A DNA stretch of 48,687 bases. Origin: Candidatus Magasanikbacteria bacterium RIFOXYD2_FULL_41_14 (lineage in GTDB: Bacteria; Patescibacteriota; Patescibacteriia; Magasanikbacterales; GWA2-37-8). The position numbers and the translations under genes were made by a program. The DNA lies in contig MFRE01000012.1 in the NCBI GenBank assembly GCA_001784475.1, positions 768 to 49,454 on the forward strand, read 5' to 3'. A model generated the notes under the pieces. The model was not told the origin of the DNA. It saw nothing but the letters and a program-made list of their open reading frames with translations, and did no database searches. Shown here in pieces: positions 19,763 to 19,871 of the stretch; the stretch's first letter is position 1; every line of letters starts with the position of its first letter.

Positions 19763-19792
19763 AAAAAAACCGCCAGGCAAGCCCGCGGCGGT
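19763..19792 (-). terminator. Intrinsic terminator/attenuator directly before trpE
   Basis: Minus-strand ACCGCC-GCGGGCTTGCCT-GGCGGT followed by T tract; ends ~11 nt upstream of the trpE ATG. Confidence 0.9.
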
Positions 19793-19817
19793 ATTAAAAC
19801 CAAAAAACGGTCTTGCT

Positions 19818-19871
19818 TTAAGGAGACATTTGAGACCACCAAGTTAAGTTTGTCTTTTGGTTATGTACCAT
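19818..19871 (-). CDS. Putative trp leader peptide MVHNQKTNLTWWSQMSP (17 aa)
   Basis: Read directly: ATG GTA CAT AAC CAA AAG ACA AAC TTA ACT TGG TGG TCT CAA ATG TCT CCT TAA; tandem Trp codons between trpR and the pre-trpE terminator. Confidence 0.88.
   Translation of the reverse strand: MVHNQKTNLTWWSQMSP

Follow-up and report, generated by a model that had tools for sequence, protein, structure and literature searches.

Evidence for a trpL-type tryptophan attenuator behind trpR in a CPR genome, with probably exchangeable tryptophan sensors in the same slot of other CPR loci

Introduction

In the trpL system of Escherichia coli, a short leader peptide with tandem tryptophan (Trp) codons near codon 10 is followed by RNA strands that form either a 2:3 antiterminator or a 3:4 terminator, and the promoter is repressed by TrpR. 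A different principle is represented by TnaC, a known Trp-sensing arrest peptide. As of 2010, amino-acid leader-peptide attenuators were known from Proteobacteria and Actinobacteria, and his leaders from Firmicutes (PMC2965389). The trp operons and trpS of Actinobacteria are preceded by classical leaders with double or triple UGG, a terminator and an antiterminator (PMC1262725). In the trpRBA operon of Chlamydia, the gap between trpR and trpB holds an alternative promoter and a YtgR operator (PMC7755916). With regard to translational switches, the programmed +1 frameshift motif of prfB (RF2) has been described (PMC12421855), and no examples of hungry-codon frameshifting that makes proteins for starvation conditions were known according to the 2016 review by Atkins et al. 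(PMC5009743). No report of attenuation in CPR/Patescibacteria was found in the openly accessible literature searched, so that an earlier report elsewhere is possible.

Here, we analysed a stretch of 48,687 nucleotides (the window) from a CPR genome (Magasanikbacteria-related) of 1.1 Mb and 96% completeness. We conclude that the window very probably contains a transcription attenuator that works through the ribosome, as does trpL of E. coli, and that is located between a probably autoregulated trpR and trpEGDCFBA on one transcript. The mechanism is a known one; the lineage and the trpR-coupled arrangement of what is apparently a genuine trp attenuator seem to be new.

Results

The trp operon of the window and its leader region

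The following features were assigned:

20188 to 20216, minus strand: trpR promoter of the sigma-70 type, read from the sequence, with TTGACA (20216-20211), a 17-nt spacer and TATACT (20193-20188)
20168 to 20185, minus strand: TrpR operator-like 18-bp palindrome GTACTGacgtaaCAGTAC, just 3' of the -10 box
19873 to 20157, minus strand: trpR, Trp repressor of 94 aa (Pfam PF01371, E=4.7e-18)
19818 to 19871, minus strand: trp leader peptide ORF of 17 codons, MVHNQKTNLTWWSQMSP followed by a stop, read from the sequence; the arrangement is kept in relatives
19852 to 19862, minus strand: early-leader protector strand AACCAAAAGAC, paired in the MFE fold of the leader without ribosome
19836 to 19841, minus strand: tandem Trp codons TGG TGG (codons 11 and 12), the proposed sensing codons
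19833 to 19837, minus strand: strand 1, GGTCT, located at the second Trp codon and likewise paired in the MFE fold of the leader without ribosome
19808 to 19816, minus strand: strand 2 (5' strand of the antiterminator), GCAAGACCG, just 3' of the leader stop, from state folding
19777 to 19785, minus strand: strand 3, CGGGCTTGC, common to antiterminator and terminator
19763 to 19792, minus strand: intrinsic terminator (strands 3:4) and T tract, -14.1 kcal/mol
18393 to 19751, minus strand: trpE, anthranilate synthase component I, devoid of Trp residues (Pfam Chorismate_bind plus Anth_synt_I_N)
17785 to 18396, minus strand: trpG (Pfam)
16777 to 17778, minus strand: trpD (sequence and operon position)
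15960 to 16802, minus strand: trpC, start uncertain (sequence and operon position)
15335 to 15958, minus strand: trpF (sequence and operon position)
14049 to 15299, minus strand: trpB (sequence and operon position)
13104 to 13901, minus strand: trpA (sequence and operon position)

The trpR stop codon (19875-19873, minus strand) is separated by a single nucleotide from the ATG of the leader ORF, which reads ATG GTA CAT AAC CAA AAG ACA AAC TTA ACT TGG TGG TCT CAA ATG TCT CCT TAA. Between this leader and the first structural gene lies the intrinsic terminator, whose loop is bounded by ACCGCC (19792-19787) and GGCGGT (19774-19769), and Trp biosynthesis genes follow directly on the same strand, from trpE at 19751 to trpA. 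The RNA strands of the leader can pair in alternative ways: strand 1 (19837-19833) is complementary to AGACC (19813-19809), the protector (19862-19852) pairs with GTTTTTTGGTT (19808-19798) over 11 bp including one G-U, and strand 2 pairs with strand 3 at 8 of 9 positions. The preliminary description of this DNA had located a 17-codon ORF with TGG TGG and a terminator between trpR and trpE, and had arrived at the same three pairings by folding by hand; the ORF and the terminator are where it had placed them, the pairings are present base for base, and Pfam bears out the identities that it had given to trpR and trpE. Its estimate of about 11 nt from the T tract to trpE likewise agrees with the 11 nt between the end of the tract (19763) and the trpE ATG (19751). 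In a search of the window leader with Rfam 15, Trp leader families included, no match reached the gathering threshold and weak matches were to unrelated families only; the loci of relatives gave no match to a Trp leader family, either. Elsewhere in the window, near its end, Rfam matches to tmRNA, tRNA and LOOT RNA are found at 44849-45250, 47789-47862 and 48175-48293.

The trpR promoter carries an operator-like sequence

As in a TrpR regulon, a Trp_repressor protein is encoded next to an operator palindrome at the promoter; the palindrome is perfect, with a 6-nt centre. Perfect operator patterns, TACT-N8-AGTA or CTAG-N4-CTAG, are located 5' of 58 of the 98 CPR trpR genes, compared to 0.67 in control stretches, and the majority sequence of the aligned sites is ATACTAGTATACTAGTAT. 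The E. coli TrpR operator is GTACTAGTTAACTAGTAC-like. Based on the frequency of these patterns and their resemblance to the E. coli operator, autoregulation by TrpR, acting on this operator, is likely across CPR. A scan of 30 genomes for the operator pattern was too loose for defining a trans regulon. The genome of the window encodes a second TrpR-family protein (L002, G000:C7:12275-12529, minus strand), which is 39% identical, YerC-like and situated beside a Fur-like gene.

Leaders with Trp codons recur behind trpR in CPR

Searches with trpE yielded loci in only 3 of 59 close relatives and 7 of 390 class members, and in 8 of 389 in a further search. Trp biosynthesis is thus rare in the group of the window and, since these loci were too few, TrpR was used as query instead. 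With a TrpR profile, 57 trpR loci were retrieved from 386 genomes belonging to another CPR class, and more from three of its families; in the class of the window itself, 31 genomes had a trpR. A leader was defined as an ATG ORF of 12-30 codons with two or more Trp within codons 8-21 and a terminator of -8 kcal/mol or better, and the chance expectation was derived from dinucleotide shuffles of the trpR loci. Leader and terminator were found in 17 of 30 own-class trpR loci (0.0 expected) and in 30 of 97 loci of the wider CPR set (0.05 expected), the latter number rising to 44 of 97 (0.25 expected) if a single Trp was allowed. A leader is lacking in roughly half of the trpR loci of CPR. The first Trp is found at codon 9-12 in 27 of the 30 wider-set leaders, and in 20 of these 30 the leader ATG overlaps with the trpR stop or directly adjoins it (offset -11 to +1); own-class offsets range from -17 to +7 in 15 of 17.

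The closest comparison is provided by a sister genus (G004, TrpE 60% identical), in which trpR is followed by an ATGA overlap, the leader MKKNITSNLKWWQAFPNR with its stop, a terminator and trpE. TGG TGG is kept there, and the antiterminator strand GTAAGGC over the leader stop can pair with GCCTTAC in the terminator. The leaders MKNFKILNTSWCWTVPPR and MKKLTQKINSMSWWAKLFLV come from genomes of the same family as the window; those at further CPR trpE loci include MEKVSYNTTWWWAVHIFGKASC, MLLNKTILKNRWWHYSWR, MYKSNKNIAAWWNLSKRG and MFKKKSNNFLWRASPFWEANYY, and MKQSMSAIQWWWTISQSQQGC is found at L009, where TrpE is only 37% identical. The attenuator reading had been proposed with the proviso that the Trp codons be conserved in relatives, and the sister genus as well as the 17 own-class and 30 wider-set loci keep the arrangement.

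In a control set of 42 trpE loci outside CPR, a terminator at that place was detected in only 2. The sole formal leader match among the non-CPR loci is a GTG ORF overlapping the trpR coding region. Gammaproteobacteria and SAR116 with the same TrpE type, in which trpR often adjoins trpE, have no such leader. These organisms (L022-L075: Oceanospirillaceae, Saccharospirillum, Gilvimarinus, Marinomonas and SAR116) share the TrpE type of CPR, which suggests transfer of the trp operon between CPR and these groups.

Many of the genes 3' of the CPR leaders are related to Trp, namely trpE, trpB, a second trpB-like type and trpS, but genes of unknown function are found as well. The gene for tryptophanyl-tRNA synthetase (trpS) shares an operon with a leading trpR in L100/L013, L270, L107, L121, L126, L133, L141 and L265, with a Trp leader attenuator between the two in L100/L013 and L270. 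In L089, L115, L118, L124, L128, L137, L260 and L273, trpR is followed, mostly after a leader, by a trpB-like gene whose product is about 31-35% identical to the TrpB of the window; this arrangement suggests salvage of indole in the absence of the remaining pathway. Leaders with a single Trp are present in L090, L091, L099, L103, L108, L114, L132 and L136. An NWQ-type motif recurs in several of them, and the terminators of this group are of the CCTCC..GGAGG type and precede genes mostly of unknown function.

Antiterminator and terminator are predicted to exclude each other

In order to follow the window leader through its presumed states, the RNA was folded with the ribosome at different positions. 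The antiterminator appears (-15.0 kcal/mol) if the ribosome occupies the Trp codons and the RNA extends to strand 3. If the ribosome has moved on to the stop codon, the antiterminator no longer forms (-5.2), and the energy of the terminator is -14.1. A stalled ribosome would thus leave strand 2 free, and one at the stop codon would cover it. In the free leader (-31.1, z=-2.06), the 1:2 and protector hairpins are present, strand 2 is sequestered and the terminator is formed. The three states are those to be expected of an attenuator. If arm 4 is present in the stalled state, the equilibrium minimum keeps the terminator (-19.4 vs -15.0), hence the switch would have to be kinetic.

Taken alone, the 2:3 helix of the window is not better than that of shuffles (p 0.36-0.41), so its significance rests on the relatives. 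In each of 42 leaders, the region 3' of the first Trp codon was therefore examined for its best pairing with the 5' side of the terminator, relative to shuffles. The pairing reached p<0.05 in 31 of them, with a combined Fisher p=4e-30 for all and 1e-9 for the window's class, both somewhat inflated by close relatives among the loci. The antiterminator that excludes the terminator, weak in the window by itself (p 0.36), is in this way supported family-wide. Since the paired strands are wholly different in sequence between genera, it is the pairing and not the sequence that is kept. Strand 2 starts between W1+9 and stop+12 in 41 of the 42 leaders, as the ribosome footprint model requires; in the window, it begins at W1+25, 1 nt past the leader stop. 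The analogy to the logic of the E. coli trpL attenuator, drawn previously from the window alone, thus gains statistical support from the relatives with regard to mutually exclusive pairing.

These data bear on two other readings of the locus. A constitutive terminator after trpR could do no more than reduce expression of trpE, in which case the short ORF and its two Trp codons would be accidental, and such a view would suit a terminator that is strong by itself and a window pairing that is not significant. It is very improbable in light of the excess of Trp-rich leaders with terminators over expectation in both sets of loci, the family-wide antiterminator pairing and the position of the Trp codon, which is kept at codon 9-12. 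Still less probable is a TnaC-like arrest-peptide switch, in which the nascent leader peptide would sense free Trp rather than charged tRNA: the leaders are indeed short and contain Trp, but around the Trp codons only the codons and their position are conserved, not the residues, and both the tandem Trp codons and the strand geometry agree with stalling at codons.

T-boxes occupy the same slot in other CPR loci

Covariance matches to T-boxes were obtained in CPR for L081-L083 (E down to 4.5e-13), L097, L110 and L188, and weaker ones for L014, L021 and L012; the T-box motif GGTGGCAC is present in L017, L025, L032 and L098. These T-boxes are divergent, falling below the Rfam gathering thresholds, and some are recognized by the motif only. 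They are positioned 5' of trpE operons or 3' of trpR, which is the slot of the leader peptide in the window. For the window itself, a T-box or another riboswitch that binds tRNA or a ligand between trpR and trpE is nevertheless very improbable despite the T-boxes in this slot in L081-L083, L097 and L110, as the window leader has neither a GGTGGCAC-type motif nor a covariance match to a T-box or other Rfam family, and the gap measures only 121 nt.

A candidate UGG frameshift site behind other trpR genes

In 11 trpR loci, a short ORF 3' of trpR ends just past NGGGG-N3-[GC]TT-TGG, and a long protein is encoded further on in the +1 frame (L084, encoding TrpE, L095, L096, L098, L106, L114, L127, L132, L135, L179 and L192). 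The +1 ORFs usually have no start codon of their own before the site. A scan with any two codons at the site retrieved only GTT-TGG (9) and CTT-TGG (2), and an NTT-TNN scan of both strands of 1.84 Mb found only these trpR-linked sites. The short-ORF/long +1 ORF architecture was absent from all 37 other occurrences of the motif in 13 genomes, and the genome of the window has no such frameshift site. All elements of an RF2-type +1 frameshift are present except the UGA, the codon being UGG in 11 of 11 cases, which sets these sites apart from the RF2 type.

In L084 (frameshift sequence AGGGGTTAGTTTGG), homology of the product to solved TrpE chains starts about seven residues past the shift, before the first in-frame ATG. 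Other frameshift products are two DIT1_PvcA proteins and one glycosyltransferase-3 (TrpD-like) protein. The DIT1_PvcA (isonitrile synthase-like) genes follow trpR in L095 and L192, where they would be read through the UGG site; a Trp- or Tyr-derived product is possible. Altogether, the frameshift products contain three Trp in 3179 residues (0.09%) versus a background of 0.92%, and this near-absence of Trp fits expression under Trp starvation. Sensors are combined in some loci, namely leader plus frameshift in L127, L132 and L114 and T-box plus frameshift in L098. A frameshift-like site 3' of trpR in L094, at which the +1 frame extends over 25 codons only, is possibly decayed or reads into a small peptide.

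The UGG site looks like a natural hungry-codon frameshift switch and is a candidate for one that responds to Trp starvation. We consider it likely that in CPR a sensor of Trp-tRNA, which is exchangeable, is placed behind an autoregulated trpR, and that some lineages use for this purpose an RF2-like +1 frameshift, RGGGG-N3-[GC]TT-UGG, with UGG replacing UGA, by which full, nearly Trp-free proteins (TrpE, isonitrile-synthase-like and others) would be made only under Trp scarcity. Of this sensor module, it is the leader-peptide version that is present in the window, not the frameshift.

Discussion

We infer from the arrangement how the attenuator in the window may operate. Trp-bound TrpR would repress the promoter 5' of trpR, as judged from the operator, and thereby control both itself and the operon. 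Given the overlap or 1-nt spacing of the leader ATG and the absence of a separate Shine-Dalgarno sequence, ribosomes ending trpR translation would restart at the adjoining leader ATG, and re-initiation would in this way couple the leader to trpR. If Trp-tRNA is scarce, the ribosome would stall at TGG TGG and leave strand 2 free to pair with strand 3, and the 2:3 pairing would block the terminator and allow RNA polymerase to proceed into trpE. If Trp-tRNA is ample, the ribosome would reach the stop codon and cover strand 2, the 3:4 terminator would form and trpR alone would be made. In a leader without ribosome, the early leader would hold strand 2 and the terminator would form, too. Control is thus probably two-tier, with TrpR autoregulation upstream of the attenuator, and the leader is coupled to trpR, unlike one that stands alone at the 5' end of a transcript.

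The occurrence of attenuators in dozens of trpR loci from two large CPR groups means that reduced cells, which are probably host-dependent, would sense charged tRNA-Trp by elaborate RNA switches. The wiring trpR-leader-terminator-trp is simple and places repressor, sensor and enzymes on one transcript, and the same slot is filled elsewhere in CPR by T-boxes and the UGG frameshift site. The latter makes the gap stated in PMC5009743 testable.

Compared to trpL of the E. coli trpEDCBA operon, the window shares the tandem Trp codons near codon 10, the 2:3 versus 3:4 strands and the predicted TrpR repression at the promoter. It differs in that the CPR leader ORF overlaps with the trpR stop or adjoins it directly, whereas the E. 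coli leader starts the transcript with its own ribosome site, in that the operon begins with trpR, and in the lack of an Rfam family match. The attenuators of Actinobacteria (PMC1262725) likewise combine a leader that has a run of UGG with a terminator and an antiterminator, ahead of trp operons and of trpS; no link to trpR was described there, the phylum is another one and there is no common leader sequence. The UGG site resembles prfB in its SD-like (A)GGGG, the 3-nt spacer, the slippery NTT-T and the combination of a short frame-0 and a long +1 ORF, but the A-site codon is a UGA stop in prfB and UGG (Trp) in the CPR site, and the genes concerned are linked to TrpR instead of being prfB. In the trpRBA operon of Chlamydia, trpR comes first and the gap after it is a second Trp-dependent control point, as predicted for the window; this gap is occupied by a promoter and a YtgR operator in Chlamydia and by a cis-acting leader peptide in CPR.
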